From Fidelibacterota bacterium (lineage in GTDB: Bacteria; Fidelibacterota; UBA8477), in the NCBI GenBank assembly GCA_021734045.1, contig JAIPJR010000027.1:1-32435 (forward strand): a stretch of 32,435 nt of DNA, given 5' to 3'. The position numbers and the translations under genes were made by a program. Numbering within the stretch: position 1 is the first letter of the stretch; every line of letters begins with the position of its first letter. The notes under the pieces were generated by a model. That model ran no database searches and was not told the DNA's origin. It saw nothing but the letters and a program-made list of their open reading frames with translations. Below, piece after piece: positions 8,007-27,140 of this stretch.

Positions 8007-8022
8007 TTTGTCCTATCCGGAA

Positions 8023-8844
8023 TCAGGGACGCTTGGGGAATTTGTTGAAATTGGGCTTGCGCTTTTCAAGAAACGCATTCCGGCCCTCCTGGCCTTCTTC
8101 GCTCATGTAAAACAGCATGGTGGCATTCCCTGCCAGTTCCTGCAGACCCGCTTGGCCGTCGCAATCCGCGTTAAGCGCCGATTTAAGACAGCGAATGGCG
8201 ATGGGGGAGTTGGCCAGAATTTCCCGGCACCACTGCACCGTCTCTTCCTCAAGTTGCTCATAAGGCACAACTTTATTCACCATTCCCATTTCCAGCGCCT
8301 CCTGCGCTGAGTACTGGCGGCAGAGGTACCAGATTTCACGCGCCTTTTTCTGTCCCACCATACGGGCTAAATAGCTGGCGCCATACCCACCGTCGAATGA
8401 GCCCACCCGGGGACCGGTTTGGCCAAAAATGGCATTTTCAGCCGCGATGGTAAGATCACACATCACATGCAGCACATGCCCGCCACCGATGGCATAACCC
8501 GCCACCATGGCTATTACCGGCTTGGGGCATGTACGAATTTGACGCTGAAAATCTAATACATTGAGACGGTGAACACCTTCGCCATCGGCGTAGCCCGCGT
8601 CACCCCGCACGCGCTGATCACCACCGGAACAGAAGGCTTTTTCACCCTCTCCTGTCAGGATAATGACACCGATTTCCATGTCATTCCGGGCATCCTCCAG
8701 CGCTTTACTCATCTCCATTACTGTAAGCGGACGAAAGGCATTGCGCACCTCGGGTCGATTGATTGTGATTTTGGCAATGCCCTCAGCTTTATGATATTTG
8801 ATATCGCTATATTCACCGGCAGTCTGCCAGTTAATCATATTCAT
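8023..8844 (-). CDS. menB: 1,4-Dihydroxy-2-naphthoyl-CoA synthase MenB
   Basis: This crotonase-fold enzyme closes the naphthoquinol ring from OSB-CoA. The oxyanion-hole motif FCSGGDQ is at 71-77. [16 protein letters not shown] and [16 protein letters not shown] (140-155) follow. The glycine of the QTG motif is the type I MenB feature, for which bicarbonate acts as the catalytic base (established for E. coli MenB). The C-terminal half is very close to the E. coli enzyme, including [20 protein letters not shown]. The length of 273 is normal. The start ATG 8844 overlaps the menH stop (ATGA) and has GAGGAG seven bases upstream; a second Met two codons later is an alternative. Confidence 0.97.
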
Positions 8845-9659
8845 AACAATCTCCTCGATGGTTTCACTTCAGTTTCTATAAAAGTTTCCACAGCTTGTAT
8901 AAACTGTTGTGGCGTCTCCCAGTGGGTATTATGACCGACCTGCGGCAGAACACGGACATTGGCGCGACGCAGGCATGTGGCGGCCACTTCCCCGGCAATG
9001 CCACGGTATTTTTCATCGAATTCACCCACAATCAGCAGGACGGGAACTAACAAAGCCCGTGATAAGTCCCAAAGCCCCGGCTGGCGCGCTACAGAGAAAT
9101 AATTCAGTGCTGTGGCCAATGTGTTCGGCGATTGGATTAGCCGGTATTCTTTTAGTGCAGCTAATTTCTCCGGTTGACGCGCCATGGATTGAAACAGAGG
9201 TTGATGATACCAACGATCCAGGAAATCCCGAAAATCCCCGCTCCTCATTGCCTCCGCCCGCTGCTGATCTGTCTCCAGCCTGGTTGTACGCTCTTCTGCT
9301 GTTTTCAGTCCGGGTGAGGCCGATTCTAAAATCAGGGTGGTAAACCAGTCCGGGTATTTCAACGCGGTGTACCACCCAATCCGGCCACCCATACTATATC
9401 CCAACAAAATCGCATCAGTGATGTCCCTGGCCGTTAGTAAATCTACGATGGCTGCGGCAGTTTCATCAAATGCATTCCCCGTCGTAATGCCTGTTAAATC
9501 GGATTCGCCGTGGCCCGGTAAGTCGGGTGCCAAGCAGTAGAAATCACGGCTAAGCGCTCGGGCAATCGGTTCCCAGTCAGCGCCGCAGCCCATAAATCCG
9601 TGTAAAAATAACATCGCTGGCTTATTAGGGTCTCCCCAAGTTTGGCACGCTAATGTCAT
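8841..9659 (-). CDS. menH: 2-Succinyl-6-hydroxy-2,4-cyclohexadiene-1-carboxylate synthase MenH
   Basis: This alpha/beta hydrolase of 272 residues eliminates pyruvate from SEPHCHC to give SHCHC. The oxyanion region [11 protein letters not shown] is near 19-29, the nucleophile elbow GYSMGGR contains S89, and D215 (GEFDEKY) and H243 (VGHNTHWE) complete the triad. The position between menD and menB, with ATGA overlaps on both sides, supports MenH over a generic esterase. On sequence alone it could be any small alpha/beta hydrolase, so the context carries part of this call. Confidence 0.93.
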
Positions 9660-11440
9660 GAGGAAAACCCCTCGTCCAACGCTTCTCGAATCTGCCGGGA
9701 GAGTTGGTGCCGAAACCCCACCTGCAGTTCCCGTTTTGTCTGAATCTCGATGATGGCGGAATGGTTCAGCTTTATCAAATCAGCCAAATGATTCAATTCC
9801 CCGGGATCCCGGATAAGGTGATAATCCAGCCCGTATTGACGAGCGGGCAGCTGAAAATCGTAGCGATGTGGTGTCCCGAAGTAGGGTTCAAACACATTTT
9901 CGTGCTGGGCGATCGGCAGATGGGAAAATATCCCACCACCGTGATTGTTAATAATAACCAGCCTCACCGGAAATTCACACCGGGCCATCAGGTGCAACGA
10001 ATTCAAATCATGCAATGCGGCCAGATCACCGATGACACCAATGACTGATTGTCTGCTTCCGGCCGCGAGTCCAGCCAGAGTAGCAATATTCCCGTCAATT
10101 CCACTGGCGCCACGATTTCCGAAAACCTGCACGCCTTTTCCAAAGTAACCATATCGATCAAAATCCCGGATGGGCATTGAATTTCCCACAAAAACCAAGG
10201 CGCCTGCAGGCAGCCACTGGCTCAGATGATAGGCCGCTGCCGCTTCAAAAATATCGGACGACACCACTTGGTTGAACTGCGCTTCCACCACCCGGGTTGT
10301 TGTTTCACACCATTTATTCTCAAAATAGCTCGGTGTGAGTTCGCGTCCGGAGAGCCGTTGTATCAAGGCTTGCGCAAAGTGACGCGGTACAGCCTGGATG
10401 TGCTGCGTGACAGCCCCGGTCGGATCCAAAGAACGCGACCAGGGGTGAATGTGAATATAATCCCGGGGCTGGCTCGTTTGAATGGCATCCAGTGCCGTTG
10501 GAGAGGTGAGTGTGCCCCCCAAATGCAGTACCACATTGGGCTGCCAGCGCTGAAGGATTTCCGGATGGGTGAAAATGTCATCTGTTATGCGACAGAGTTT
10601 GCCGGCATCCAGCAGTCCTCGGACCGGCGACTGAATGTCCACATATACCGGCCATTGGAGTAGTTCCCCTAATTTCAAATACACATCTGTCTCGGCACGG
10701 TCATTTTCCCGGCCAAGGACAAGCAAACCATGGGTGGCGTGTATCACCTTCCCAACGATGTGGTTGAGTGCGTCTGTCGTGACCGATTCGGTGCCTTCTG
10801 CTTTGGCAAAAGTTTTTGGTGCTGAGTCCAGCCAACTCCCGATAGGGGCAAGCCATGCGGTGAAGTCGGTGTCCGATGGTGTGGACTCCAAGGGTTTTTC
10901 AAACGGGCAATTCAGGTGAACCGGTCCGCAGGTAGTACTGCTGAACAATTTCCCGGCCGCCTCTTCCAGTGTATCAATAAGGTACTGCAGGGGAATCATC
11001 CTGGAGGGGATCGGCAGGGTTCGTTCAAAACGCGTGTAATGGGAGTAAATTCCGGATTGGAGAATCGTTTGATTGGCTCCAGTATTCCAAAGATAGGGAG
11101 GCCGATCGGCCGTGAGCGCCAGAAGGGGTAGATTGTCCTGGGATGCCTCCACGATTGCAGAAAGATAATTGGCGGCAGCGGTTCCCGATGTGCAGATGAG
11201 TGCTGCCGGCTTTCCGGTGGCTCGGGCGTACCCTATGGCAAACCAAGCTGCGCCGCGTTCGTCTATATGAATCGTGGTTCTTGTCTGTGGATGTTCCGCA
11301 GCTGCCAGCGTCAGCGGCGTTGATCGCGAGCCGGGACTTATGACAAATTGCGTAATGCCGTGACGCACCAACGCTTCAATCATGATGGAAGACCATAGGC
11401 TGTTGGTATTGGCGTGATTTAGGTTTCGTGAATCGGTCAT
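9656..11440 (-). CDS. menD: 2-Succinyl-5-enolpyruvyl-6-hydroxy-3-cyclohexene-1-carboxylate synthase MenD
   Basis: This thiamine-diphosphate enzyme adds the succinic semialdehyde unit from 2-oxoglutarate to isochorismate. It has ISPGSRSTPLT at 34-44, the conserved Glu in DERGAAWF (E61), CTSGTAAANY, and the ThDP/Mg site GDLAALHDLNSL at about 471-482 with IINNHGGGIF (496-504). The chosen start is ATG 11440, which overlaps the menF stop (ATGA), giving 594 residues. An in-frame ATG at 11491 would add 17 residues inside the menF C-terminus and is less likely. The C-terminus overlaps menH by four bases. Confidence 0.96.
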   Translation of the reverse strand: MTDSRNLNHANTNSLWSSIMIEALVRHGITQFVISPGSRSTPLTLAAAEHPQTRTTIHIDERGAAWFAIGYARATGKPAALICTSGTAAANYLSAIVEASQDNLPLLALTADRPPYLWNTGANQTILQSGIYSHYTRFERTLPIPSRMIPLQYLIDTLEEAAGKLFSSTTCGPVHLNCPFEKPLESTPSDTDFTAWLAPIGSWLDSAPKTFAKAEGTESVTTDALNHIVGKVIHATHGLLVLGRENDRAETDVYLKLGELLQWPVYVDIQSPVRGLLDAGKLCRITDDIFTHPEILQRWQPNVVLHLGGTLTSPTALDAIQTSQPRDYIHIHPWSRSLDPTGAVTQHIQAVPRHFAQALIQRLSGRELTPSYFENKWCETTTRVVEAQFNQVVSSDIFEAAAAYHLSQWLPAGALVFVGNSMPIRDFDRYGYFGKGVQVFGNRGASGIDGNIATLAGLAAGSRQSVIGVIGDLAALHDLNSLHLMARCEFPVRLVIINNHGGGIFSHLPIAQHENVFEPYFGTPHRYDFQLPARQYGLDYHLIRDPGELNHLADLIKLNHSAIIEIQTKRELQVGFRHQLSRQIREALDEGFSS

Positions 11441-12849
11441 AAACCCAAACTCGCCGTGATTGTTTGAAATTTCTGCCGCATCTCCTGCCATTCCATTTCA
11501 GCATCTGAACCGGTTACAATGCCCACGCCGGCATATAAAAATATCTGACGGACATCGGTGATGAGTGCGGAGCGAATACCCACAGCGAATTCCGCGTCAT
11601 TTCCACGAATCCATCCCACCGGCCCGCCAAACCATCCCCGGCTAAAATCTTCGTAATGGCGTATCGCTTCCAGCGCTTTTGAACGAGGAAATCCACCCAA
11701 AGCCGGTGTGGGGTGCAGTGTCGTAAGAATCTCACCCAGGCCGATTTCGGATTTGAGCGTGCCCCGTATTTGCTGGTACAAATGCTGCACAAAGGGTGTT
11801 TCCACGATACCGGGAGAATCATCGGACTGAATCGTGTCAGCCAATTTTTGGAAGCGTGTTTGGAGCTGATTCATCACGATTTGATGTTCACGGCGATCTT
11901 TTCCGCTGCTCATCAGTTCCTGACCCATCGCCACATTCTCAGGAGAAGACGCACCCCGGGGACGCGTGGCTGCCAGGGCTTCAGATTCCAGTGAATGCTG
12001 TTGCCGCAGGAATAATCGTTCGGGAGATGCGCCCATAAAGACACAATTGGGCTCGAATTCAAAATAGAATCGGTAGGATTTTGAATTTTGGTGGACAAGC
12101 TGATTGAAAATGGCACCGGTAGACAGATTGGATGCCAAATTGAGAACCTCTTTTTTGGCCAGAACAACTTTATCAAATGTCCCGCTACCGATGTCCTGCA
12201 TCGCTTGTTCATGAATTTCCAGCCAGTGCGTATGTTTGGGGAATTCGTCCCGTCCCAGAACCTGAGTTAGTGGTAATTCAGCCGGTGTCATATCCCAATG
12301 CAGGGCTGCAAACGCTTCAAGCAATTCGTCCAGAGCAGGTGAGATTTTTTCCGGTGCAATCGTTTGTACCACGAAGCGCTGTCGGTCGCCTTCGGTTTCC
12401 AGATAAAATTGGGGTGCTACAAACCGGTAAGCACCGAAAGAGCGCCATCCCATTTCCACATCCAAATAGGGATCAAAAGCAACCCCGCCAAACCAGGTAA
12501 GGTACGCAGCGTCCCGGTCAGTAAGCCCATCCAGTATCGCTTTTAAATCACCGGAGGCGTTAACCTGTGGTGCAAGATGCGCCTGCGCTTTACCAATCGC
12601 CGCCACAGCATAATCGCCCTCACGGGCGTACCAGGCGATTTTGGGTAAACTTTTCTGACAGTTAAGCCAGGTGAGTTGGTCAATGGTTTCCCCGTTATTG
12701 GGTTCGAACTTTATCTTGATAATGGTAGGTTTGACCGATTTATCACCCCGATGCAATCTGTCGCGCAGTTCCGCCAAATGTCGGGGAAACAGTTCAGGGA
12801 GTTGATGAAGGTCGGGGATGCGAATCGTACTGGATAATAGGCCTGCCAT
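11437..12849 (-). CDS. menF: Isochorismate synthase MenF
   Basis: This 470-residue chorismate-utilising enzyme is the first committed step of menaquinone synthesis. The C-terminal catalytic domain has FDKVVLAKK (K227 matches the general base K190 of E. coli MenF), GASPERLF (E277, at the same +50 spacing as E. coli E240), ALAATRPRG, LHPTPALGGFP, GWFGGPVGW, and the Mg-binding segment ending GIVTGSDAEMEWQE. The divergent N-terminal ~200 residues are usual. ATG 12849 has no clear Shine-Dalgarno; it is the first gene of the leftward operon and faces purA across a 448-bp gap. EntC/DhbC-type salicylate or siderophore enzymes are the alternative, but the men context settles the role. Confidence 0.95.
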   Translation of the reverse strand: MAGLLSSTIRIPDLHQLPELFPRHLAELRDRLHRGDKSVKPTIIKIKFEPNNGETIDQLTWLNCQKSLPKIAWYAREGDYAVAAIGKAQAHLAPQVNASGDLKAILDGLTDRDAAYLTWFGGVAFDPYLDVEMGWRSFGAYRFVAPQFYLETEGDRQRFVVQTIAPEKISPALDELLEAFAALHWDMTPAELPLTQVLGRDEFPKHTHWLEIHEQAMQDIGSGTFDKVVLAKKEVLNLASNLSTGAIFNQLVHQNSKSYRFYFEFEPNCVFMGASPERLFLRQQHSLESEALAATRPRGASSPENVAMGQELMSSGKDRREHQIVMNQLQTRFQKLADTIQSDDSPGIVETPFVQHLYQQIRGTLKSEIGLGEILTTLHPTPALGGFPRSKALEAIRHYEDFSRGWFGGPVGWIRGNDAEFAVGIRSALITDVRQIFLYAGVGIVTGSDAEMEWQEMRQKFQTITASLGL

Positions 12850-13258: not shown

Positions 13259-14616
<1,358 letters not shown>

Positions 14617-14617
<1 letters not shown>

Positions 14618-16956
14618 TGGCATTTACATCCGAAATTCTGGATTTCTCCAGTGAGAATACCAGTCGTATTCAAAATCTATTGCGCGAGTTCAACATCGCC
14701 TTGACACCTGAAGAGGCGGTGAAAATTCAAAAACATTTTCTGAAGCGAGCACCTTCACTGGCGGAAGCGATTCTCTTCTCCTTCGAAGGGTCGGAACACT
14801 GCTCCTACAAATCCAGTCGTCCTTATTTGAAACAATTTATCACCGAAGGGCCCCATGTGATTCTGGGTGCCAAAGAGGACGCGGGCATCGTTGCGGTGGC
14901 CACGGACAAATCGGGACGGCGCTACGGCATTGTTATGAGTCATGAATCCCACAACCATCCCAGCCAGATCGTGCCTTATGAAGGTGCTGCCACCGGAATC
15001 GGCGGGAATGTGCGAGACGTGGCTTGTATGGGTGCAGAGGTCATCGCGGTGGCCGATGGTCTGCGCTTTGGCGAGCTGAGCCGGCCGAAAACCAAGTGGA
15101 TACAGGAAGGTGTGGTGGGGGGCATCGCCGGCTATGGCAATCCCATCGGTGTTCCCAATCTGGCAGGCGATGTTTATTACGATGCCGGCTATAATGACAA
15201 TTGTCTTGTGACGGTGGTGACACTGGGCGTGGTACGTGAAGAGGATATCATTCATTCTTACGCGCCAGAGAACGCGGCCGGTTATGATCTGATTTTAGTC
15301 GGGAAACCGACTGACAACAGCGGTTTCGGTGGTGCCAGTTTCGCTTCATTCGAATTGGATGAAGCTGAAAAAGCCCAAAACAAGGGAGCAGTGCAAGAAC
15401 CGAATGCCTTTTTGAAGCGCCATTTGCTAAAAGCCACTTACGGGTTGTTCGATCTGCTCAAATCACGTGGTGATTTGCAGCGGGTAGGTTTTAAAGACCT
15501 GGGTGCCGGCGGAATTGCCACTGCCAGTGTGGAAATGGCGGAAACGGCTGGTTATGGAGCTGAGATTGACATGGCGAAAGTCCACACCAGTATGCCGGAC
15601 TTACACCCTTCAGTGATTTTGTGCGCGGAGACCCAGGAACGATTTATGTGGGTTTGTCCACCGGACCTCACGCCAGTGATTCTGGATCATTACAACGAAA
15701 CATTTAATCTGCCCAATATCAGTGTGGGCGCGCGAGCCAGTCAAATTGGGACAATCCGGGATGATGGACAATTCATTGTCAGGGTTGGCGAAACGGAAAT
15801 TGTGAATGCTCCGGCGCCGGAGGTGACGCGTGGGTTTTTATACCATCGTGAGGTACGAGCGCCTAAGCTTACCTTCACTGAGCCTGAAATCCCAGAACCA
15901 GAAGATTACAATGCGGTACTTCTGAAAATCCTGGCGCATGAAAATGTGGCTTCCCGGGAGGCGATTTTCGAAACCTACGATAAATCGGTGCAAGGCCGGA
16001 CCGTTTTAGAGGCGGGTGAGGCTGACGCGGGCATTATGCAGCCCTTTAACTCGGACGACTTTCCACAGGAAATCCGCGCCACCGGTATTGCCCTCACCGT
16101 CGATCAGAATCCTGCTTACGGCAAGATTGATCCTTACTGGGGTGGTGTAAACGCAGTTGCCGAGTCGCTACGCAATATCGCCGCCACCGGCGCGTTACCG
16201 GAAGCAATCACCGACTGCCTGTGTTATGGCAATCCAGAAAAACCGGAACAGATGTGGGCCTTCGTTGAGGGGACGCGAGGTGTGGCAGAAGCCTGTAAGA
16301 ATTTTCCCTTGGCAAAGTATGATAATGCGCCCTTACCCATTATCGCCGGGAATGTCTCCTTCTACAACGAAACAAAGGATTCCGCCATTCCACCAAGTCC
16401 CATCATCGCCTGTGTGGGTAGTATGCCGGATGCTGGCCGGGCGGTACCAGCTTCATTTCAACAGGCTGGCAGCGTAATTATGCTGGTGGGGGAGCGGCAG
16501 GATGAATGCGGCGGCAGTATTTATTATGCCCTGCGCGGTGAGTTGGGCTGTCAGATTCCCAAACCCGACATGGCGGAACTACAAAAACAGGTTCATGCTA
16601 TGGCGGAGATAATCCAGTCGGGATTGGCGCGAAGTTGTCACGATATCTCCGAAGGCGGTGTGGCAGCAGCGCTCTGTGAAATGACGTTTCAACAGAGCAT
16701 AGGCTGCCGGGTTGACATTCGCGGGAATCTGCGCAGGGATAAGAAATTGTTCAGTGAAACCGGTGGTTTTTTACTGGAAGTACCGCGGGAGAACCTCACG
16801 GATGTACAGGGCATTTTTCAAAAATGGTCTTTCACCAGTGAGCCCATCGGCGAAACGACGGCGGAAGAGACGATTGTTATTGATCACGTGATTGATTTGT
16901 CTGTGGAAACAGCACGATCTGCCTGGCAGAATGGTCTGCGGGAGAAGCTGACATGA
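14617..16956 (+). CDS. purL: Phosphoribosylformylglycinamidine synthase subunit PurL (small type)
   Basis: This 779-residue catalytic subunit converts FGAR, ATP and ammonia to FGAM. At ~780 residues it is the small PurL, which needs separate PurQ and PurS partners, unlike the ~1300-residue single-chain enzyme. The motifs SEHCSYKSSRPYL (about 59-71) and ESHNHPSQIVPYEGAATGIGGNVRD (110-134) are visible, as is the second, structurally duplicated half. The start is ATG 14617, which overlaps the purA stop (TGATG); an adjacent TTG at 14614 is less likely. The protein should pair with the PurQ-PurS fusion encoded two genes downstream. Confidence 0.97.
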
Positions 16957-17993
16957 GCCTTAACTATAAAAGTGCCGGTGTGAATATCGACGCAGGTAAC
17001 GAAGTGGTGGCACGCATCAAGGATGAAGTCAAGGCGACCTTTTCCCCTGCGGTTCTCACCGGAATCGGGAGTTTTGGGTCCTTTTTCGACCTGTCCGATC
17101 TACTCACCGGTTATAAAAATCCTGTTTTGGTGCAGAGTATTGACGGCGTGGGAACCAAGATGATAGTTGCCCGAAAGCTGGGAAAATTTGACACCATCGG
17201 ACACGATTTGGTGAGCGCTTGTGTGAATGACATTATTGTTCACGGCGCCCGGCCACTCACTTTTCTGGATTACATCGCCAATGACCGGTTAAATCCGGAT
17301 ATCGTGGCAGAAATCGTTGGTGGAATGGCTAAGGCTTGTCGGGGAATTGGCGTCTCCCTGGTAGGGGGTGAGACGGCCGAAATGCCCGATACCTACCGAC
17401 GGGGTGAATTGGATTTGGTGGGCGTTGTTACCGGTGTGGTGGATAAAGATAAAATTGTGAATGGCGCAGGAATCTGTCCCGGAGACAAGATTATTGGTGT
17501 GAATTCAAGTGGCCTTCATACAAACGGCTATTCGCTGGCAAGGAAACTTTTCTTCGATGTGGGCGGGTACGCAGCAGCTGATTTTCATCCACGGTTGAAT
17601 GAAACAGTCGGTGCAGCACTCCTCAAACCACACATTAATTACACCGGATTGGTCATGGGTGTTCTGGATGCCGGGATTGCGGTGAAGGGCATGGCTCATA
17701 TCACCGGTGGCGGACTGCCGGAAAACCTTCCCCGGATATTGCCGGAAAACTGCCAGGCAGTGATTCGAAAATCCGCCTGGGAGGTACCGGAAATCTTTAA
17801 CACAATGCAGCAAATTGGTGAAATTCCCGACCACGAAATGTACCGCACCTTCAACATGGGTATCGGGTTGGTTTTCGTGGTGACCCCGGAATTTGCCCAA
17901 ACATTACAAACCTTTATCGCGGATAACAGCGATCTCCGGTCATTTGACCTGGGGTCGATCCAGGAGGGCAGCCCCGGTGTTGAATTCTCCTAG
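16953..17993 (+). CDS. purM: Phosphoribosylformylglycinamidine cyclo-ligase PurM
   Basis: PurM closes the imidazole ring, FGAM to AIR, with ATP. DGVGTK at 64-69, HDLVSACVNDIIVHGARPLTFLDY, and GGETAEMP at 138-145 are conserved AIR synthetase motifs. The C-terminal half includes HITGGGLPENLPR. Its 346 residues match the family. ATG 16953 overlaps the purL stop (ATGA) and has GGGAG eight bases upstream, so translation is likely coupled. It belongs to the same superfamily as PurL. Confidence 0.97.
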   Translation: MSLNYKSAGVNIDAGNEVVARIKDEVKATFSPAVLTGIGSFGSFFDLSDLLTGYKNPVLVQSIDGVGTKMIVARKLGKFDTIGHDLVSACVNDIIVHGARPLTFLDYIANDRLNPDIVAEIVGGMAKACRGIGVSLVGGETAEMPDTYRRGELDLVGVVTGVVDKDKIVNGAGICPGDKIIGVNSSGLHTNGYSLARKLFFDVGGYAAADFHPRLNETVGAALLKPHINYTGLVMGVLDAGIAVKGMAHITGGGLPENLPRILPENCQAVIRKSAWEVPEIFNTMQQIGEIPDHEMYRTFNMGIGLVFVVTPEFAQTLQTFIADNSDLRSFDLGSIQEGSPGVEFS

Positions 17994-18068
17994 GCGACTT
18001 CCAAATCTCCATCCGATGCAGCAAACGACCATGCAGACTGTTGCGCCCCTCACTCAGGACAGATATTC

Positions 18069-19355
18069 ATGAAAAAAATTGCAGTGATTCAATTTCCCGG
18101 CAGTAATTGTGAGCGTGAATCGATTCTGGCACTGAAGCGCAATGGTCTGGAGCCGGTTCCATTTCTCTGGAATCAATCCTACAAACAGCTCGCAGCATGT
18201 GACGGGTTCTTCATCGTGGGTGGATTTTCCTATGAGGACCGCTCCCGCGCGGGTGTTATCGCCTCGCTGGACCCGGTAATCCGGGTGTTGAAGCGTGAAA
18301 GTGAGAAGGGAAAACCGGTGCTGGGAATATGTAATGGGGCGCAGGTACTGGTGGAGACAGGTCTTGTTCCGGGAGCAGAGAATTATCCGCTGGCCATGGC
18401 GCTTGATGCCAATCGCCGTATGCAAAATGGCCAGGTTATCGGTACCGGTTTTTATAACGGGTGGGTTGAGGTGAAAATGACAACAGGGCCGGATCGCTCA
18501 GCTTTTACCCGGGATTTTTCGGCGCATGAGCAAATGCTTATTCCCGTCGCCCATGCTGAAGGCCGGTTTGTCATTCCATCAAATGTTTTAAAGCAGTTAC
18601 ATGATAATGACCAATTACTCTTCAGCTATGTGGATGAACATGGTCAGGCTGTTCCGGATTTCCCCGTGAATCCTAATGGTTCGGTGGAAAACCTGGCCGC
18701 AGTTTGTAATCCGACTGGAAATATAATGGCCATGATGCCCCATCCGGAGCGGACGCAAAATGGCGACAAGATTTTTTCCAGTATGCGGCATTATTTGCAT
18801 AAAGGAAAGCCGGTACTCTCTCCCAAATATTCACTTACCATACCGGCATCAAAACTCACCCCGTACACACCGTCCGCGGGTGCGCAGGAATTATTGGTGG
18901 ATTTAATCATTACGGATAACGAAGCGGTTTCTGTGGAACAGGCGCTGAGGAATTTGGGCTTCTCTGTGAATGTCCACCGCCAGACACATTGGGAACTGGG
19001 CTTCCAATCACCCCCCACCGAATCGGAACAGACCCTGCTGATGGACTCAGGCGAGTTATTCAATTCCAACAAAGAAATTTTAGCTAAAGAAGAATCTAAC
19101 CAGACAACCGGCGTGTACCGGATTTTGGTACGTCACCGGGAAGGCGGCGTGGGAAGCCACAAGTTGAAAGCACTGCGGGATTGGTTTGGCATTACTTCAC
19201 TGAACCGGGTCAGACGTGGCATTCTCTGGACGCTGGAATTGAACGGTGAAAATCACGCGGGAACGCTCAACGACATTTTGAAAACCCATATTTTTTTCAA
19301 CCCTTTTGCCCACGATGCCTATTGGTATGGCAATGAAGGGCCGGGAGAAGTGTAA
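18069..19355 (+). CDS. purQ: PurQ-PurS fusion: FGAM synthetase glutaminase with tandem PurS-like C-terminus
   Basis: Residues 1 to about 245 are a class I glutaminase of the PurQ type: QFPGSNCERE at the N-terminus, the nucleophile C88 in LGICNGAQVL, and H225/E227 in MMPHPERT. This part supplies ammonia to PurL. About 155 residues follow that PurQ lacks. Residues 274-345 and 348-420 each read as a PurS-like beta-alpha-beta unit: a beta strand (ELLVDLIIT; YRILVRHRE), a helix (VSVEQALRNLGF; SHKLKALRDWFG), a strand, and an ending resembling the LxNPxxxxY tail of PurS (FFNPFAHDAYWY in the second). No separate purS is in the cluster. It is 75 bp after purM with GGA near the ATG. I infer that two PurS equivalents are fused; the first repeat is the more divergent. 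Confidence 0.88.
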   Translation: MKKIAVIQFPGSNCERESILALKRNGLEPVPFLWNQSYKQLAACDGFFIVGGFSYEDRSRAGVIASLDPVIRVLKRESEKGKPVLGICNGAQVLVETGLVPGAENYPLAMALDANRRMQNGQVIGTGFYNGWVEVKMTTGPDRSAFTRDFSAHEQMLIPVAHAEGRFVIPSNVLKQLHDNDQLLFSYVDEHGQAVPDFPVNPNGSVENLAAVCNPTGNIMAMMPHPERTQNGDKIFSSMRHYLHKGKPVLSPKYSLTIPASKLTPYTPSAGAQELLVDLIITDNEAVSVEQALRNLGFSVNVHRQTHWELGFQSPPTESEQTLLMDSGELFNSNKEILAKEESNQTTGVYRILVRHREGGVGSHKLKALRDWFGITSLNRVRRGILWTLELNGENHAGTLNDILKTHIFFNPFAHDAYWYGNEGPGEV

Positions 19356-19363
19356 AAAAAGGA

Positions 19364-19417
19364 AAAACGGGCTGGCGTGGGTTTCTCACGACACCGTTTT
19401 GAAGTAAAAAAACGGAG
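19364..19417 (+). promoter_or_regulatory. Possible RNA switch-like structure before purC
   Basis: AAAACGG (19364-19370) can pair with CCGTTTT (19394-19400), enclosing a second stem CGTGGG-TTT-CTCACG (19376-19390). The same CCGTTTT can instead pair with a second AAAACGG at 19409-19415, whose last bases form part of the purC Shine-Dalgarno GGAG (19414-19417). The two foldings exclude each other. The repeat and pairing are seen directly; a regulatory role is an inference. The weak AU-rich outer stem could also be only an intergenic hairpin. Confidence 0.4.
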
Positions 19418-19422
19418 ACTAA

Positions 19423-20394
19423 ATGACCGATTATAAAACGATTATCCAAAAACACATCCACAATTGCCTGGAAGCCACAGATCTGGGCATTGGGGAGAAG
19501 ATAAAGGGAAAGGTTCGGGACAGCTACCGGTTGGATGACAAGATGGTGTTTGTCACCACTGACCGCCAGAGCGCTTTCGATCGCATACTGGCAGCGATTC
19601 CTTTCAAAGGACAGGTGTTGAACCAGACCAGCGCCTGGTGGTTTGAACGCACCAAACACATCATTCCCAATCATGTTCAAAGCATTCCCGACCCCAATGT
19701 GACGGTAGGGACCCGGTGTGAGGTTTTTCCCGTGGAGTTTGTCATGCGTGGCTACATCACTGGTTCCACCAGCACCTCTTTATGGACAGTGTACAATAGC
19801 GGTTCGCGTAATTATTGCGGGAATGCCCTGCCGGAAGGTCTCGTGAAGAATCAGAAACTGGCGGAAAATCTTATCACACCCACCACCAAAGACGCGGTTC
19901 ATGACCGGCCGATTTCCCCGGATGAAATTATTGCCGAAGGACTCATGTCCGCGGAGGACTGGGCATACGCCAGCGCAAAAGCTCAGGAGTTGTTCGCCTT
20001 TGGTCAGGAGGTTGCAAAAAAACATGGATTAATTCTCGTGGATACCAAGTATGAGATGGGAAAGGATGCGGAAGGCAATATTCTGCTCATTGATGAAATT
20101 CACACCCCCGATTCCAGCCGGTACTGGATTGCGGATAGCTATGAAGAGCGTATTGCCAACGGTCAGGAGCCGGAAAATATTGACAAGGAATTTCTACGCC
20201 TATGGTTCAAGGAACATTGTGATCCGTACCATGACGAGGTTCTGCCGTCGGCACCTGCGGAGATGGTGGTGGAATTATCCCGCCGCTATATACAGTTGTA
20301 TGAAATGATCACGGGAGAAACCTTTCAATTCCCGAATATTGATGTACCGATTCAAGAGCGAATTCAAACCAATCTGGCAGGTGTATTATCATGA
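19423..20394 (+). CDS. purC: SAICAR synthetase PurC (long form)
   Basis: PurC joins CAIR with aspartate using ATP. GKVRDSY at 29-35, TDRQSAFDR at 46-54, VEFVMRGYITGSTSTSLW, LVDTKYEMGKD and DEIHTPDSSRYW are family signatures. At 323 residues it is the long form, as in yeast Ade1 and many Bacteroidota, rather than the ~240-residue E. coli/B. subtilis form. GGAG five bases before the ATG gives a clear start. The stop overlaps purE as ATGA. The preceding 67-bp spacer carries the alternative hairpins listed separately. Confidence 0.97.
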   Translation: MTDYKTIIQKHIHNCLEATDLGIGEKIKGKVRDSYRLDDKMVFVTTDRQSAFDRILAAIPFKGQVLNQTSAWWFERTKHIIPNHVQSIPDPNVTVGTRCEVFPVEFVMRGYITGSTSTSLWTVYNSGSRNYCGNALPEGLVKNQKLAENLITPTTKDAVHDRPISPDEIIAEGLMSAEDWAYASAKAQELFAFGQEVAKKHGLILVDTKYEMGKDAEGNILLIDEIHTPDSSRYWIADSYEERIANGQEPENIDKEFLRLWFKEHCDPYHDEVLPSAPAEMVVELSRRYIQLYEMITGETFQFPNIDVPIQERIQTNLAGVLS

Positions 20395-20786
20395 AAAAAG
20401 CAGTTATAATCATGGGCTCAACCGCTGACGAAGCCCATGCGAAAAAGATTACGGATAAACTAGACGAATATGGCATTAGCTGGGAGCAGTACGCCGCTTC
20501 CGCTCACAAGCAGCCGCTGAAAGTGCTGGAAATTCTCCAGACGAATGCTACTGAAAAAGCGCTCGTGTATGTGACAATTGCCGGTCGCTCCAATGCATTG
20601 AGTGGCTTTGTGGCTGCTAATAGTGAATTCCCCACCATCGCCTGTCCACCCTTCGCAGATAAGGTGGATATGCTGGTGAATATTCATTCTACGCTGCAAA
20701 TGCCCAGCAAAGCACCTGTTTTGACCGTGATTGATCCTGGTAATGCCGCCCTGGCGGTGAAACGTATTCTGGATTTGAGTGCCTGA
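20391..20786 (+). CDS. purE: Class II (CO2-dependent) AIR carboxylase PurE
   Basis: This 131-residue PurE carboxylates AIR to CAIR. The N-terminal MGSTADEAHAKKI is the nucleotide-binding loop. Two sites set its class: SAHK at 37-40 (class I has SAHRT) and IAGRSNALSGFVAAN at 63-77 (class I has AGAGGAAHLPG). The SAHK, AGRSN and CPP wording matches the animal AIR carboxylase domain of PAICS and class II bacterial PurE, which use CO2 directly. No purK is present, as expected for class II. It is shorter than E. coli PurE (169) and may lack the C-terminal helix. It overlaps purC and purB at its two ends, so it is translated with them. Confidence 0.9.
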   Translation: MKKAVIIMGSTADEAHAKKITDKLDEYGISWEQYAASAHKQPLKVLEILQTNATEKALVYVTIAGRSNALSGFVAANSEFPTIACPPFADKVDMLVNIHSTLQMPSKAPVLTVIDPGNAALAVKRILDLSA

Positions 20787-22159
20787 TGACTGCATTGAAT
20801 CCATTCAATGCCATCTCACCCCTTGATGGCCGCTATCGCAGTGATGTGTTGCCGCTGGCGGATTATTTCTCCGAAGCAGCACTCATGCGATACCGGCTGC
20901 GGGTGGAGGTGGAATATCTTATCGCATTAAGTCTGGAGACAGAACTCAAGGAGTTACCGGCATTCTCTACAGAAATCCAGGCTGCATTGCGGGGATGCTA
21001 CGAGAATTTCAGTGAAGCTGATGCGAGCGCAATTAAATCGCTGGAAGCCACCACCAATCATGATGTGAAAGCGGTGGAGTATTTCCTGAAAAATCTCATC
21101 TCTCAACACCTGCCGACGGTAAACACCGAGTGGGTTCACTTTGCCCTCACCTCCGAGGATGTGAATAACCTGGCCTATAGCCTCATGTGGCAGGAGGCGG
21201 TGCAGCGAGTGTACCTGCCGGAGCTGGGTAAAGTGATTGGAGCGTTGCGGATTTTGGCGGAAAATCAAGCGGATACGGCGCTGCTGGCCTTGACCCATGG
21301 TCAGCCGGCAACACCCACCACACTGGGGAAGGAGATGGCCGTTTTTATCGCCCGGCTCCAGCGCCAGCGGGATGCTTTGGAAGCACACCGTCTGTTGGGA
21401 AAACTGGCTGGCGCATCCGGAACATGGGGTGCGCACCAGATCGCCTGTCCGGAGGTGGACTGGCCGGAGTTTGCTCGCGGGTTTATCACGCAGTTAGGAC
21501 TTACCCCCAATCTCACCGTTACCCAGATCGAAAGTCATGACAGCCTGGCGGAAAGTTATCACCTTCTAACCCGGGTCAATTCCATTCTCATTGACCTCTG
21601 TCAGGATATGTGGCTCTATATCAGCCGGGAAGTATTCCGGCAAAAGGCGAAAAAAGGGGAGGTTGGCTCCAGCACCATGCCCCACAAGGTCAATCCCATT
21701 CAGTTTGAGAATGCTGAAGGCAACCTGAAGCTGGCCAATAGTTACTTCCATTTTCTGGCGGAGAAATTGCCCGTTTCACGCTGGCAGCGAGACCTTACCG
21801 ACAGTACAACTTTGCGGAATCAGGGGATGCCTTTGGCGCATAGTTTTTTGGCTTTGGGAAACATCCTGAAGGGACTGGACCGGGTCGCTGTGAACCACGC
21901 CCAAATTGCTGCAGAACTGGACAGGCACTGGGAAGTGCTGGCGGAAGCGATTCAAACCGTGTTGCGAAAAAATGGGCATCCCAATCCTTATGAAGCCCTG
22001 AAAGCGTTGACGCGGGGACAGACGATTGATGCGGACGCGATTCGGGCATTTGTGTCATCATTGGAAATGCCCGATGAGGAAAAGGCCAAGTTATCGGCGT
22101 TGACGCCGGCAGACTATACCGGGTTAGCAGGGAAAATCGCCCGGGGAGAAATCGCCTGA
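20786..22159 (+). CDS. purB: Adenylosuccinate lyase PurB
   Basis: PurB acts twice: SAICAR to AICAR, and adenylosuccinate to AMP. The fumarase/aspartase-family signature GSSTMPHKVNPIQFE starts at residue 294, so S295 lines up in number with the catalytic serine of E. coli PurB. NAISPLDGRYRSDV at the N-terminus and LTHGQPATPTTLGKE are also typical. The length of 457 matches the E. coli-type enzyme (456). ATG 20786 overlaps the purE stop (TGATG), and its own stop overlaps purF in the same way. Confidence 0.97.
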   Translation: MTALNPFNAISPLDGRYRSDVLPLADYFSEAALMRYRLRVEVEYLIALSLETELKELPAFSTEIQAALRGCYENFSEADASAIKSLEATTNHDVKAVEYFLKNLISQHLPTVNTEWVHFALTSEDVNNLAYSLMWQEAVQRVYLPELGKVIGALRILAENQADTALLALTHGQPATPTTLGKEMAVFIARLQRQRDALEAHRLLGKLAGASGTWGAHQIACPEVDWPEFARGFITQLGLTPNLTVTQIESHDSLAESYHLLTRVNSILIDLCQDMWLYISREVFRQKAKKGEVGSSTMPHKVNPIQFENAEGNLKLANSYFHFLAEKLPVSRWQRDLTDSTTLRNQGMPLAHSFLALGNILKGLDRVAVNHAQIAAELDRHWEVLAEAIQTVLRKNGHPNPYEALKALTRGQTIDADAIRAFVSSLEMPDEEKAKLSALTPADYTGLAGKIARGEIA

Positions 22160-23667
22160 TGTGTGGGATCGTGGGGATTAAAGCGAACCGGCCGGTAGCT
22201 GCAGAAATATACGACAGCCTGATTCATCTTCAGCACCGGGGACAGGACGCGGCTGGGATTATGACTTATGAGCAGCGCATGCATGCCGCCAAAGGAACCG
22301 GTTTTGTCCGGGACATTTTCACTGAAGAAAATATGCCACGCCTCCTGGGAAATACAGGGATTGGCCACACCCGTTATCCCACCCACGGTGGTTTCAGCCA
22401 CGAGGAGATCCAGCCTTTCTGGACTGAAGTGCCTTATGGAATTGCTCTTGCCCATAACGGCAACCTTGTGAACTACAGTGAATTAGCGGAAGAAATTACA
22501 GATAAGCAGAAACGCTATCTGAACACGCGATCCGACACAGAGGTTATTTTACACCTTTTTTCTGAGGCATTGGGACGCACGAATCCCACCGATTCCAACG
22601 GTGATTTTTTCGAGAGTGTATGTCAGGCGGTGGAAAATGTGATGGACCATGCCAGCGGTGCTTATTCAGCGGTTTCTACCATTGTTGGTAAAGGATTGGT
22701 GGTATTTCGAGACCCCCACGGCATCCGACCATTAGCCAAAGGGGTTCGTAAAAACCCCGATGGATCGCAGGATTACATTTTTTCCTCGGAAACCACCATG
22801 TTTTATGCCCTGGGATACACGCTGGCGGGGAATGTCCTGCCGGGAGAGGTCATTTTCATCAGTGAAGCAGGTCGCTACTACAGCCGTCGCCTGCGGAAAG
22901 CCGAATTCTCACCCTGCATCTTTGAATACGTCTATTTTTCCCGCCCCGACACCATGATGAACGATGTGAGCGTGTACCGCTCCCGCTTGCGAATGGGCCA
23001 GAACCTGGCGGAGGCGTGGCTCCAAAAACATCCGGATGTCATTCCCGATATTGTTATTCCGGCGCCCTCTACCGCCAATACAGCGGCATTATCCATGGCA
23101 CACAAACTGGGTGTCCGCTATTCGGAAGGGTTATATAAAAATCCTTTTATTGGTCGAACCTTCATCATGCCTGGCCAGCAGCAACGGAAAAAATCGGTGC
23201 GGTATAAGCTGGTTCCCCAGGAGATCGAGATTCGGGACAAGAAGGTGATGATCGTGGACGATAGTATTGTGCGGGGTACCACTAGCCGGGAAATCGTGAA
23301 AATGGTGCGTGAATTCGGCGCGAAAGAGGTCTATTTCGTGTCCGCCTGTCCGCCGGTGAAATTTCCCTGCTTTTACGGTGTCGATATGCCCACCAAATCG
23401 GAACTCATCGCTGCGCAGCAGGAGATCTCCGATATTGAAAAATACATGGGCGTTGACATTCTAATGTATCAGGAGCTGTCTGATCTGGAAGAAGCGGTAA
23501 CGCGGAAAGGGGACCATCATATTGACCGGCCGTGTATGGCTTGTCTGGATGGTAACTATATTACCGGCGATGTGGACGATGACAAAATGCGTGAAATGGA
23601 AATCATGCGGGAAAAACATCGCAGCGGAGATGATTTATGGCAATGGTCGAAAAAGTCCTCATCATAG
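22159..23667 (+). CDS. purF: Amidophosphoribosyltransferase PurF
   Basis: PurF makes phosphoribosylamine from PRPP and glutamine, the first step of the pathway. MCGIVGI puts the glutaminase nucleophile at C2 directly after the initiator Met, with no long propeptide. IGHTRYPTHG and AHNGNLVNY are glutaminase motifs, and VMIVDDSIVRGTTS at about 363-376 is the PRPP-binding loop. The length of 502 and the C-terminus resemble the E. coli-type enzyme. Its start overlaps the purB stop (TGATG), and its 3' end overlaps purD by 31 bases. Confidence 0.97.
   Translation: MCGIVGIKANRPVAAEIYDSLIHLQHRGQDAAGIMTYEQRMHAAKGTGFVRDIFTEENMPRLLGNTGIGHTRYPTHGGFSHEEIQPFWTEVPYGIALAHNGNLVNYSELAEEITDKQKRYLNTRSDTEVILHLFSEALGRTNPTDSNGDFFESVCQAVENVMDHASGAYSAVSTIVGKGLVVFRDPHGIRPLAKGVRKNPDGSQDYIFSSETTMFYALGYTLAGNVLPGEVIFISEAGRYYSRRLRKAEFSPCIFEYVYFSRPDTMMNDVSVYRSRLRMGQNLAEAWLQKHPDVIPDIVIPAPSTANTAALSMAHKLGVRYSEGLYKNPFIGRTFIMPGQQQRKKSVRYKLVPQEIEIRDKKVMIVDDSIVRGTTSREIVKMVREFGAKEVYFVSACPPVKFPCFYGVDMPTKSELIAAQQEISDIEKYMGVDILMYQELSDLEEAVTRKGDHHIDRPCMACLDGNYITGDVDDDKMREMEIMREKHRSGDDLWQWSKKSSS
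23626..23629 (+). promoter_or_regulatory. Ribosome binding site of purD inside purF
   Basis: GGAG lies seven bases before the ATG at 23637 and inside the purF coding sequence. It supports that ATG over the next one at 23643 and makes the 31-base overlap with purF credible. Confidence 0.6.
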
Positions 23668-24959
23668 GGTCAGGTGCCCGGGAACATGCCATTGCCCGGG
23701 CATTGCAGCGGTCGCTCCAGGTACCTGAACTGGTTGGCTTGGGAACGAATTTAAATCCGGGTTTAATGCAGTTGTGCGGTGTGTTTGAAGTTGGCAATAT
23801 TACCGATGCGGAAGCAGTTCTGGCCTTCGCTGGCAAGCACAAGGTTACGTTGGCCATCATTGGTCCGGAAGCGCCGCTGGAAGCCGGTGTGGCAGACGCG
23901 CTCTGGCAGGCAGGTATTCCCACTGTGGGACCCCGGCAACAATTAGCGCAAATCGAGACAAGTAAAGCTTTTGCCCGGGAAATGCTTACCAAGTACGCTA
24001 TCCCGGCATGTCCCGGATATAGAGTATTCCAAACCATGGACGGTGTGGCTGATTATCTGACTGAGTTAGGGAACCATTATGTCGTGAAAGCTGACGGTCT
24101 GACGGGTGGGAAAGGCGTTAGGGTCGCCGGAGAACACCTCCATTCCCATGAGGAGGCTTTGGCGTACGCAGTAGCGTTGTTGGACGAAGCCGGGCAGTGT
24201 GTAATTGAGGAGAAACTGGTTGGTGAAGAATTCTCCCTTATGAGTTTTTGCGATGGTAAGACCTTGCGCCACATGCCACCGGTTCAGGATCATAAACGTG
24301 CCTACGAAGGCGATACGGGACCCAATACCGGCGGGATGGGGAGTTACACCGATGCCGGTGGATGCCTGCCATTTCTGACGGAATCTGATATTCAAAAGGC
24401 CCAGCAAATCAATGAGCAGAGTGCCGCAGCATTGGCGGCCGAGTTCGGGCAACCGTATCAGGGGATTTTATACGGTGGCTTCATGGCTACCCGGGAAGGG
24501 GTGAAGTTAATTGAGTACAACGCCCGCTTCGGCGACCCGGAAGCGATGAATGTACTGGCCCTGCTGGAAACCGATTTTCTGGCCGTTTGTCAGGCGATTG
24601 TTCAGCAAAATCTCATGGATTTGGAAGTGACATTTGCACCGCTGGCCACGGTGTGTAAATATGCTGTCCCGCAGGGCTATCCGGAGAAGCCGGTAAAAGG
24701 TGAGCCGGTTGATGTCTCCGCTGTCAAGCAGCCTGAGCAAGTGTATTTCGCCTCCGTGGAAGCGAAGGGCGATATTCTCAGGGAAGCCGGCTCGCGGACG
24801 ATAGCGGTGGTGGGCATTGCGCCGGACCTTTCTTCAGCGGAGAAACAGGCGGAGGAACTGGTTTCGGATATTGAGGGACCCCTGTTCCACCGGCGAGATA
24901 TTGGTACTCGGGAATTGGTGCAAAAGCGAATCGACCACATGCGAGAAATTCGCGGATAG
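23637..24959 (+). CDS. purD: Phosphoribosylamine-glycine ligase PurD
   Basis: PurD makes GAR from phosphoribosylamine, glycine and ATP. GSGAREHA at 11-18 starts the N-terminal domain. The ATP-grasp core has VVKADGLTGGKGVRVA, HKRAYEGDTGPNTGGMGSYTD, and the Mg-binding YNARFGDPEAM. GMGSYTD...LPFLT replaces the common GMGAYSP, a wording I associate with archaeal-type PurD. The length of 440 is slightly above E. coli (429). The start overlaps purF by 31 bases and is backed by GGAG at 23626. Confidence 0.95.
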   Translation: MAMVEKVLIIGSGAREHAIARALQRSLQVPELVGLGTNLNPGLMQLCGVFEVGNITDAEAVLAFAGKHKVTLAIIGPEAPLEAGVADALWQAGIPTVGPRQQLAQIETSKAFAREMLTKYAIPACPGYRVFQTMDGVADYLTELGNHYVVKADGLTGGKGVRVAGEHLHSHEEALAYAVALLDEAGQCVIEEKLVGEEFSLMSFCDGKTLRHMPPVQDHKRAYEGDTGPNTGGMGSYTDAGGCLPFLTESDIQKAQQINEQSAAALAAEFGQPYQGILYGGFMATREGVKLIEYNARFGDPEAMNVLALLETDFLAVCQAIVQQNLMDLEVTFAPLATVCKYAVPQGYPEKPVKGEPVDVSAVKQPEQVYFASVEAKGDILREAGSRTIAVVGIAPDLSSAEKQAEELVSDIEGPLFHRRDIGTRELVQKRIDHMREIRG

Positions 24960-24961
24960 CC

Positions 24962-25570
24962 ATGGCTACCGTCACACCCATCAGGCTGGGCATACTGGGA
25001 TCCACAAAAGGTACGGATTTAGAGGCCATAGTTAGTGCCATTGATGCGGGTGTGCTGGAGGCTACCGTTGAAATTGTCATAAGCAATAAAAGTCAGGCAT
25101 ACATTCTGGAACGCGCGCGCCGACACGGAATCGCCACCCAATTCATCGGTGCGAAGAACAAAACAAGAGAAGCATTTGATCGGGAAGTCACTGCTGTACT
25201 GGAAAACCGCCGTGTGGAGCTGATTCTGCTGGTCGGCTTTATGCGAATTTTGTCACCGGCGTTTTGTGAGCGCTGGCAAAACCGCATTCTTAATGTCCAT
25301 CCTTCACTTTTACCCGCATTTGCCGGTGGAATGAATTTGGATGTGCATCAGGCGGTATTGGATGCGGGTGTCCGTGAGACCGGCTGTACGATTCATTTTG
25401 TAACGCCTGAAGTGGATGCAGGACCCATCGTGATTCAAAAACGGTGCAGCATTGAACCGGGAGAGACAGCGGAATCGTTGAAAGCAAAAGTCCAGGCATT
25501 GGAAGGAGAGGCTTTCATCCAGGCTATTCAGCAATATCAAAATCATCAACTCGACCATCTATTTCGATAA
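24962..25570 (+). CDS. purN: Phosphoribosylglycinamide formyltransferase PurN
   Basis: This is the 10-formyl-THF-dependent GAR formylase. The catalytic N111 and H113 are in LNVHPSLLPAF, with D152 in EVDAGPIVIQ. Upstream, LLVGFMRIL is conserved. The phosphate loop reads GSTKGTDLEAI where many PurN have GSGRGSNLQA, a variant but still Gly- and Ser/Thr-rich. The length of 202 is normal. No formate-dependent PurT is present in the window. The ATG is two bases after the purD stop and has only a weak ribosome binding site. Confidence 0.95.
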   Translation: MATVTPIRLGILGSTKGTDLEAIVSAIDAGVLEATVEIVISNKSQAYILERARRHGIATQFIGAKNKTREAFDREVTAVLENRRVELILLVGFMRILSPAFCERWQNRILNVHPSLLPAFAGGMNLDVHQAVLDAGVRETGCTIHFVTPEVDAGPIVIQKRCSIEPGETAESLKAKVQALEGEAFIQAIQQYQNHQLDHLFR

Positions 25571-25586
25571 AAGAACCAAATTGAGC

Positions 25587-25591
25587 AGGAG
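25587..25591 (+). promoter_or_regulatory. Ribosome binding site of purH
   Basis: AGGAG lies four bases before the ATG at 25596. It decides the purH start against an in-frame TTG at 25581, which would add five residues and would lie upstream of this site. Confidence 0.7.
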
Positions 25592-25595
25592 AACT

Positions 25596-27140
25596 ATGCA
25601 TACAGAACCCATCCGCGTGAAACGCGCGTTGGTGTCCGTCTCGGACAAATCCGGCATCGTGGATTTAGCACGCGCCCTGGCAAATCAGAATGTGGAGATC
25701 ATATCTACCGGCGGAACCGCCAAGGTATTGACCGAAGCGGGAATCACCGTCACCAGTATCAGTGATATCACCGGATTTCCCGAAATCATGGATGGCCGCG
25801 TCAAGACACTCCATCCCAAAGTTCATGGCGGGATTTTGGGGTTGCGGGATGTGCATGCCGACACGGCCAAGGAACAGGGGATTGGTTGGATTGATCTGGT
25901 GGTGTGCAATCTGTATCCCTTTGCCGCCACCATTCAGCATCCGGATGTGACTCTGGATGAAGCGCTGGAAAATATTGATATTGGTGGCCCCTCCATGATC
26001 CGCAGCGCTGCAAAAAATGTGGGCTGGGTGAGCGTGGTGGTGGATCCGAACGATTATCCCGATGTCATCCAAATTTTGGAGCAGGGGGCAGGAATTTCCT
26101 ATGACATGCGGCAGCACCTGTCTGCCAAAGCGTATGCCCACACGGCAGCTTATGACACCGTGATTGCCAATTACTTCAATCCGGAGACCTTTCCGGTAGA
26201 GCGCAGTTTTACCTACAAAAAATCCATGGATTTGCGGTACGGTGAAAATCCCCACCAGCAGGCGGCTGTGTATGAATCGCCCATTCAAGGTGACGGACCC
26301 AATATTCTCATCGCGAAAATTCATCAGGGAAAAAAACTGTCGTATAACAATATCGCCGATGCGGATGCGGCGCTGGCTTGTTTGCAGGAATTTGATGCGC
26401 CAGCCTGTGTGGTGGTGAAACATGCCAATCCCTGTGGCGTGGCGGTGGGAACCGATATCGTGGATGTGTATCAGCGGGCATTCAATGCCGATTCATTATC
26501 CGCTTTTGGCGGTATTATCGCCCTGAATCGAACCTGTTCAGCCGCGGTGGCTGAGGAGATTCGCAAGGTATTTGTCGAAATTGTTTTGGCACCGGCCTAT
26601 GAACCGGAAGCGCTGGACATTCTGGCAAAGAAGAAAAATCTGAGGGTTCTGGAGTTGGGAGAGATTACCCCTCGCGCTGCGGGGCAGGAATTTAAGTTTG
26701 TGAGTGGTGGCCTCCTGATTCAGGACAAGGATGTTCACACCCTCAAGGCGGGTGATTTGAAGGTTGTTACCAACGAAAAACCCGACGAAACAACATTACA
26801 GGAATTGTTGTTCGCCTGGCAGGTGACCAAACATGTGAAGTCCAATGCTATTCTCCTGGCGAAGGATAATACCACGGTTGGCATTGGGGCCGGTCAGGTA
26901 AGCCGGGTGGACGCTACCGATATTGCGGTTCGTAAAGCCGGTGATCGTCTGCAGGGCGCTGTCCTGGCTTCAGATGCGTTTTTCCCGTTCCGGGACAGCA
27001 TTGACAAACTGGCTGGTAGCGGCGTGAAGGCCATCATTCAGCCGGGTGGTTCTATTCGTGATGAGGAGGTCATCGCGGCGTGCAATGAGCATGGAATTGC
27101 CATGGTGTTCACGGGGATTCGATCGTTCAAGCATGGTTAG
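25596..27140 (+). CDS. purH: Bifunctional AICAR formyltransferase/IMP cyclohydrolase PurH
   Basis: PurH carries out the last two steps to IMP. The N-terminal MGS-like IMP cyclohydrolase domain (about 1-195) begins [19 protein letters not shown] and includes [20 protein letters not shown] and [14 protein letters not shown]. The AICAR transformylase domain has [29 protein letters not shown] (the catalytic Lys-His pair), KSNAI, and [11 protein letters not shown]. The length of 514 from ATG 25596 is normal. It is last of the rightward operon and converges on the YwaF-type gene across a 103-bp spacer. Confidence 0.97.

Follow-up and report, generated by a model that had tools for sequence, protein, structure and literature searches.

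The DNA analysed here (hereafter the window, i.e., the whole stretch of 32,435 nucleotides) belongs to a marine bacterium that its named relatives place in Candidatus Marinimicrobia (Neomarinimicrobiota). On the forward strand it harbors a purine biosynthetic operon, whose features are reported in Table 1; the genes from purA to purD were covered by the family scan, and purN and purH were named by the homologous gene order in relatives. The gene referred to as purQSS encodes a chain in which a PurQ domain is followed, after a linker, by a C-terminal extension of about 155 residues. The window purL is devoid of a PurS-like N-terminal domain and is a gene apart from purQSS, with purM in between, so that the extension is not located on the synthetase chain, unlike in large PurL.

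Table 1. Features of the window (positions are those of the whole stretch; res, residues of the purQSS product)
Feature	Position	Strand	Basis
Purine operon purA-purL-purM-purQSS-purC-purE-purB-purF-purD-purN-purH	13298..27140	+	Family scans (purA to purD)
purL, small type, 780 aa, presumed partner	14614..16956	+	NF002290 664.4 bits (over 648); FGAR-AT_linker res 20-66
purQSS, 428 aa	18069..19355	+	ORF with ATG start
PurQ glutaminase domain, res 1-245	18069..18803	+	PF13507, TIGR01737, fold match 3d54_D
Catalytic Cys88	18330..18332	+	Invariant, 26-row alignment
Catalytic His225 and Glu227 (HPE)	18741..18749	+	Invariant, 26-row alignment
Linker, res 246-272	18804..18884	+	Lowest model confidence between domains; poorly conserved
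PurS-like unit 1, res 273-342, motif IITDNEA..SGELFNSNKE	18885..19094	+	hhalign with PurS; secondary structure
Asn332 (unit 1), invariant, aligned with PurS Asn68 (B. subtilis numbering)	19062..19064	+	Alignments
PurS-like unit 2, res 345-420, end THIFFNPFAHDAYWY	19101..19328	+	Unit 1 match; second half of large-PurL N-domain; PurS structures
Asn411 (unit 2), invariant, aligned with PurS Asn68 (B. subtilis numbering)	19299..19301	+	Alignments
purE, only 131 aa	20391..20786	+	TIGR01162 103.8 bits (under cut-off 149.6); AGRSN present
Minus-strand cluster	4680..11491	-	Pfam: TPP enzyme, alpha/beta hydrolase, enoyl-CoA hydratase family, MenC-type enolase, AMP-binding enzyme

Two other features of the window can be mentioned. 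The short PurE presumably resembles class II AIR carboxylase, the vertebrate type; in the window genome PurK was not found above its cut-off, the weak match lying in a frame of 1066 amino acids. The cluster located on the minus strand is one that we take to be devoted to menaquinone synthesis.

The first-pass annotation, based on the letters and their open reading frames, had read the first ~245 residues of the purQSS product as a complete PurQ carrying C88, H225 and E227, and this reading was borne out. PF13507 matches residues 3-231 (E 3.7e-44), and TIGR01737 (PurQ, class I glutaminase) scores 203.5 bits, above its curated cut-off of 177.8; the Cys-His-Glu triad is invariant. The models of large PurL score this part lower (88.7-94.4 bits), and these scores assign the PurQ part to the stand-alone type. 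The whole chain was modelled with AlphaFold2 on a 26-row alignment (pLDDT 88.8, pTM 0.88); in this model the PurQ domain matches T. maritima PurQ (3d54_D) with Z 27.8 and rmsd 1.5 over 204 residues, and the confidence along the linker shows 10-residue block means of 78, 65 and 86.

Since the fold search carried out with the whole protein returned glutaminases throughout, the extension was modelled alone (27 rows, pLDDT 92.0). The resulting model is composed of two homologous beta-alpha-beta-alpha-beta units, the first with strands (E) and helices (H) at E273-279, H284-295, E300-312, H318-326 and E336-338, and the second at E349-356, H360-373, E378-391, H396-404 and E415-419, in agreement with the boundaries (274-345 and 348-420) previously proposed for two PurS-like units. 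When the extension was compared with the PDB using Foldseek, all the matches at E<=1e-3 (18/18) were large PurL from Salmonella and human. A second alignment (VIA-align) gave Z values of 10.2-12.7 for the large-PurL N-domains; the best match (Z 12.7, rmsd 2.4, 134 residues) places residues 1-154 of the extension on residues -6 to 143 of the large-PurL chain. More generally, residues 1-155 align with large-PurL residues ~-7 to 157, i.e., with the N-terminal domain, both units being in register. The next matches are seven PurS entries (Z 4.4-4.8, rmsd 1.9-3.2, 71-76 residues), aligned with unit 2 and including 1vq3, 2yx5, 1gtd and 3d54_B (Z 4.8), followed by the first unrelated fold at Z 3.6. 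The predicted model of the extension has, therefore, the fold of the large-PurL N-domain (PF18076, FGAR-AT_N), with its two PurS-like halves in order, as well as the PurS fold, for which the Z value by itself is modest.

At the sequence level, PF02700 (PurS) scores 12.9-13.5 bits on the window protein (E 0.09-0.13), under its gathering cut-off of 22.2, and a search of the PDB sequences with the profile of the extension family (hmmsearch) retrieved no chain at E<=1. In a Pfam scan of the extension family, PurS was the commonest match (12/27 members, the next one having 3/27) and PF18076 matched one of the 27 members (E 0.21); the NCBIfam scan of the extension returned little. Two relatives pass the PF02700 cut-off, that is, unit 1 of a fused protein from Patescibacteria (L096, 27.1 bits, profile positions 12-75 of 77) and unit 2 of the stand-alone form of a Woesearchaeon (L046, 24.5 bits).

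A profile-profile comparison (hhalign), built on about 55 relatives, gave a probability of 94.3% for unit 1 versus PurS and 67.0% for unit 2 versus the second half of the large-PurL N-domain, with none of 200 column shuffles reaching as high in either case; the reversed-profile controls of these two pairs gave 0.2-0.3% (0.2% for unit 1 and PurS). The direct comparison of unit 2 with PurS is not convincing (7%, with 1/200 shuffles as high), and that of unit 1 with the large-PurL domain, whose profile consists of only four sequences, gave 0.2%. Weak or mixed matches were obtained with the mdPurL and large-PurL profiles, each built on few sequences. For unit 1 versus unit 2 the value is 89.9%; this pair lies outside the shuffle control, which covered the comparisons of unit 1 with PurS and of unit 2 with the large-PurL half and with PurS. 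In forced full-length alignments, an asparagine invariant in 19 PurS sequences (N68, B. subtilis numbering) falls on both N332 and N411, which are in turn invariant among the fused relatives, and relatives with identities down to 39% keep the extension end to end.

Thus, the similarity to PurS that the first-pass annotation anticipated in both profile and predicted fold was found in both; in terms of sequence, homology with PurS beyond chance is secured through unit 1. On the basis of these comparisons and of the predicted model, the extension can be described as a tandem pair of PurS-like units folded like the large-PurL N-terminal domain. One trait of PurS, the free subunit of ~80 amino acids, is not observed, the two tandem units being joined to PurQ.

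The lack of a separate purS, originally noticed for the operon, holds for the whole window assembly (92% complete), in which PF02700 found nothing over its cut-off and TIGR00302 nothing at E<=10; no standalone purS was thus detected elsewhere in the genome. In a survey of 100 genomes of the phylum, the full fusion was found in 16, none of which has PurS (0/16), versus 57 of the 64 genomes with an unfused PurQ (Fisher p 9e-12, related genomes being counted as independent). PurS over the cut-off is also absent from the seven module-carrying genomes outside the phylum (six fused, one split), and the same search was positive in 12 of 14 control genomes. The seven genomes having an unfused PurQ without PurS all belong to one family (f6), in other members of which the PurS match lies within an ORF of about 1000 amino acids. 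The f6 ORFs examined read, from their sequence, as PurL with a tandem PurS-like N-terminus. Such a double N-terminus together with the lack of a separate purS was observed in L116, L117, L118, L120 and L121 (and partially in L119 and L122), and the f6 PurQ is very divergent in the PurQ tree (branch 3.05). A single phylum, therefore, uses three arrangements: a separate PurS, a module on PurL and a module on PurQ.

The PurQ-PurSS fusion is a widespread family. As suggested by the first-pass annotation, PurQ homologues were surveyed, and the extension was found to recur, besides the phylum of the window, in 68/140 genomes of the Legionella order, taken as the one to which a record titled Legionella sp. 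belongs, where PurS was found in none of the 140 genomes, and, among bacteria with tiny genomes, in 23/380 genomes of the Patescibacteria phylum to which a Magasanikbacteria record belongs; the 10 of these 380 genomes with a PurS match are all distinct from the carriers of the extension. In the PurQ tree, the 54 fused proteins fall into a single group (96/97) together with the Woesearchaeal PurQ, separate from the ordinary PurQ of the phylum; the tree does not include the PurQ of other phyla, its root was placed for drawing only and its inner branches are partly unresolved. The Woesearchaeon L046 harbors a purQ of 261 amino acids and, directly downstream, the module as a separate ORF of 153 amino acids homologous to the window extension (E 1.9e-7); this split form might represent either the state existing before the fusion or a later split.

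Some variants were observed among the Patescibacteria. In a Magasanikbacteria sequence (L042:10004-12667, forward strand), the four modules PurQ-PurSS-PurC-PurE lie in one frame of 888-889 codons without a stop. In a subgroup of the Patescibacteria fusions (L101-L113), unit 2 is so diverged that the family profile detects only unit 1, even though the frames still span 409-442 amino acids. Lastly, a 1016-aa ORF (L128, G516:C62) matches PurS twice in tandem, each time (3.3e-9 and 1.3e-7) above the Pfam cut-off.

Because of the predicted fold, the profile matches, the shared asparagine, the mutual exclusivity with purS and the split Woesearchaeal ORFs, it is very probable that the product of the window gene is a PurQ, the glutaminase subunit of FGAM synthetase, with a double-PurS domain covalently attached to its C-terminal end, which would serve as the PurS pair of the small PurL. 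Counted against this reading are the score of the extension under the PF02700 cut-off, the failure of the family profile to match PDB sequences and the low value of unit 2 versus PurS. The extension might in principle be a regulatory domain that binds a ligand and has a similar, ferredoxin-like topology (PII or ACT type), with PurS being absent for another reason, and PII/GlnK and other folds do appear in its match list (Z 2.4-2.7); however, the large-PurL N-domains and PurS rank first with nothing else close, PurS is the commonest Pfam match of the extension and its exclusivity with the fusion is strict, which makes a regulatory domain very improbable. Similarly, a separate purS could lie in the missing 8% of the window assembly, so that the extension would be an addition rather than a replacement; however, neither the fused genomes of the phylum nor those of the Legionella order contain a purS, in spite of a search that succeeds in most controls. 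Such a hidden gene is, therefore, extremely improbable, and an assembly gap as the cause of the absent purS was rejected on the basis of the phylum survey.

A different issue, compatible with the double-PurS reading, is the source of the module, which may derive from the N-domain of large PurL through a permutation or split of the single-chain enzyme rather than from an independent duplication of PurS. The best fold matches, with both units in register, and the value of unit 2 with the second half of that domain rather than with PurS speak for such a descent; the values of unit 1, high with PurS and negligible with the four-sequence large-PurL profile, and the stand-alone type of the PurQ part speak against it, so that it can be entertained as a possible but somewhat doubtful origin. 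The earlier proposal that the units arose by tandem duplication stands as far as their mutual homology is concerned (90%), and an independent PurS origin was not favored over a shared descent with the large-PurL N-domain (unit 2: 67% versus 7% with PurS).

As regards the history of the fusion, the order purL-purM-purQSS-purC is common to Marinimicrobia, Magasanikbacteria, Doudnabacteria and the Legionella record, which suggests that the gene might have been transferred together with its neighbors. We tentatively propose that PurQ-PurSS is a separate and ancient form of FGAM synthetase with a permuted architecture, which had a single origin and then spread, at least partly with a whole purine operon, between Marinimicrobia, relatives of Legionella and Patescibacteria, the Woesearchaeal split form preserving the step that preceded the fusion. 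If this were the case, PurQ-PurSS would be a living intermediate that illustrates the assembly of double-PurS modules and perhaps also of large PurL.

If the double-PurS reading is correct, one PurQSS chain would bind one small PurL, with the fused pair sitting between PurQ and PurL, at the place occupied by the free PurS homodimer or by the large-PurL N-domain, where it may support docking, the coupling of the glutaminase and the transfer of ammonia to the FGAR/ATP site. The small-type FGAM synthetase contains PurL, PurQ and PurS in the ratio 1:1:2 (PMC10912719), which the fusion, by its anatomy, would make automatic, and the loss of PurS impairs the enzyme (PMC3815217). The large-PurL N-domain, which corresponds to the PurS dimer (PMC3815217; PMC10927867), buries 1919 A2 against the glutaminase and 1033 A2 against the synthetase (PMC3815217); a module fused to PurQ would be in keeping with this larger contact on the glutaminase side. 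On PurQ, the double-PurS module takes up a third position, besides the free form and the one on PurL, all of them in one phylum, and the three placements fit the idea of PurS as a bridge between two catalytic subunits. Moreover, the two PurS copies now differ in sequence, so that patterns of conservation can reveal, and mutations can test, the distinct role of each position; a homodimer does not permit this. There is also a practical aspect: the curated family models scanned name the window protein only as PurQ, and as a consequence the carrier genomes seem to lack purS and their purine pathway seems broken, which affects the auxotrophy calls for uncultured bacteria, Patescibacteria and the Legionella order.

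No paper on a PurQ-PurS fusion was found in the open literature, subscription papers being outside the scope of the search, so that a prior description is possible. The nearest analogue of PurQ-PurSS is the mdPurL of some archaea (PMC3261824). Both in mdPurL and in the family f6 a double-PurS or PurS-like module is carried by a catalytic subunit and a separate purS is usually lacking, as in PurQSS; however, it is located at the N-terminus of PurL (as in the f6 ORFs of about 1000 amino acids L116, L117 and L120) and not at the C-terminus of PurQ. The Woesearchaeal module is homologous to the extension and lies downstream of purQ, but it is not fused. The PurLQS complex (T. maritima, 3d54; B. 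subtilis) performs the same three functions, and its PurQ and PurS chains individually match in fold; in that complex PurS is a free homodimer of chains of ~80 amino acids each, whereas in PurQSS both copies are arranged in tandem behind PurQ, on the same chain, and their sequences have diverged. Finally, the large PurL, or FGAR-AT (Salmonella 1t3t, human PFAS), contains the same kind of double-PurS module, which is the best fold match of the extension. The view of the fusion as a solution different from large PurL is, therefore, correct for the point of attachment, i.e., the C-terminus of the glutaminase rather than the N-terminus of the synthetase, and not for the module itself, which is the same. 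The order PurSS-PurL-PurQ on one chain of large PurL becomes here PurQ-PurSS on one chain and PurL on another, that is, an arrangement both permuted and split.
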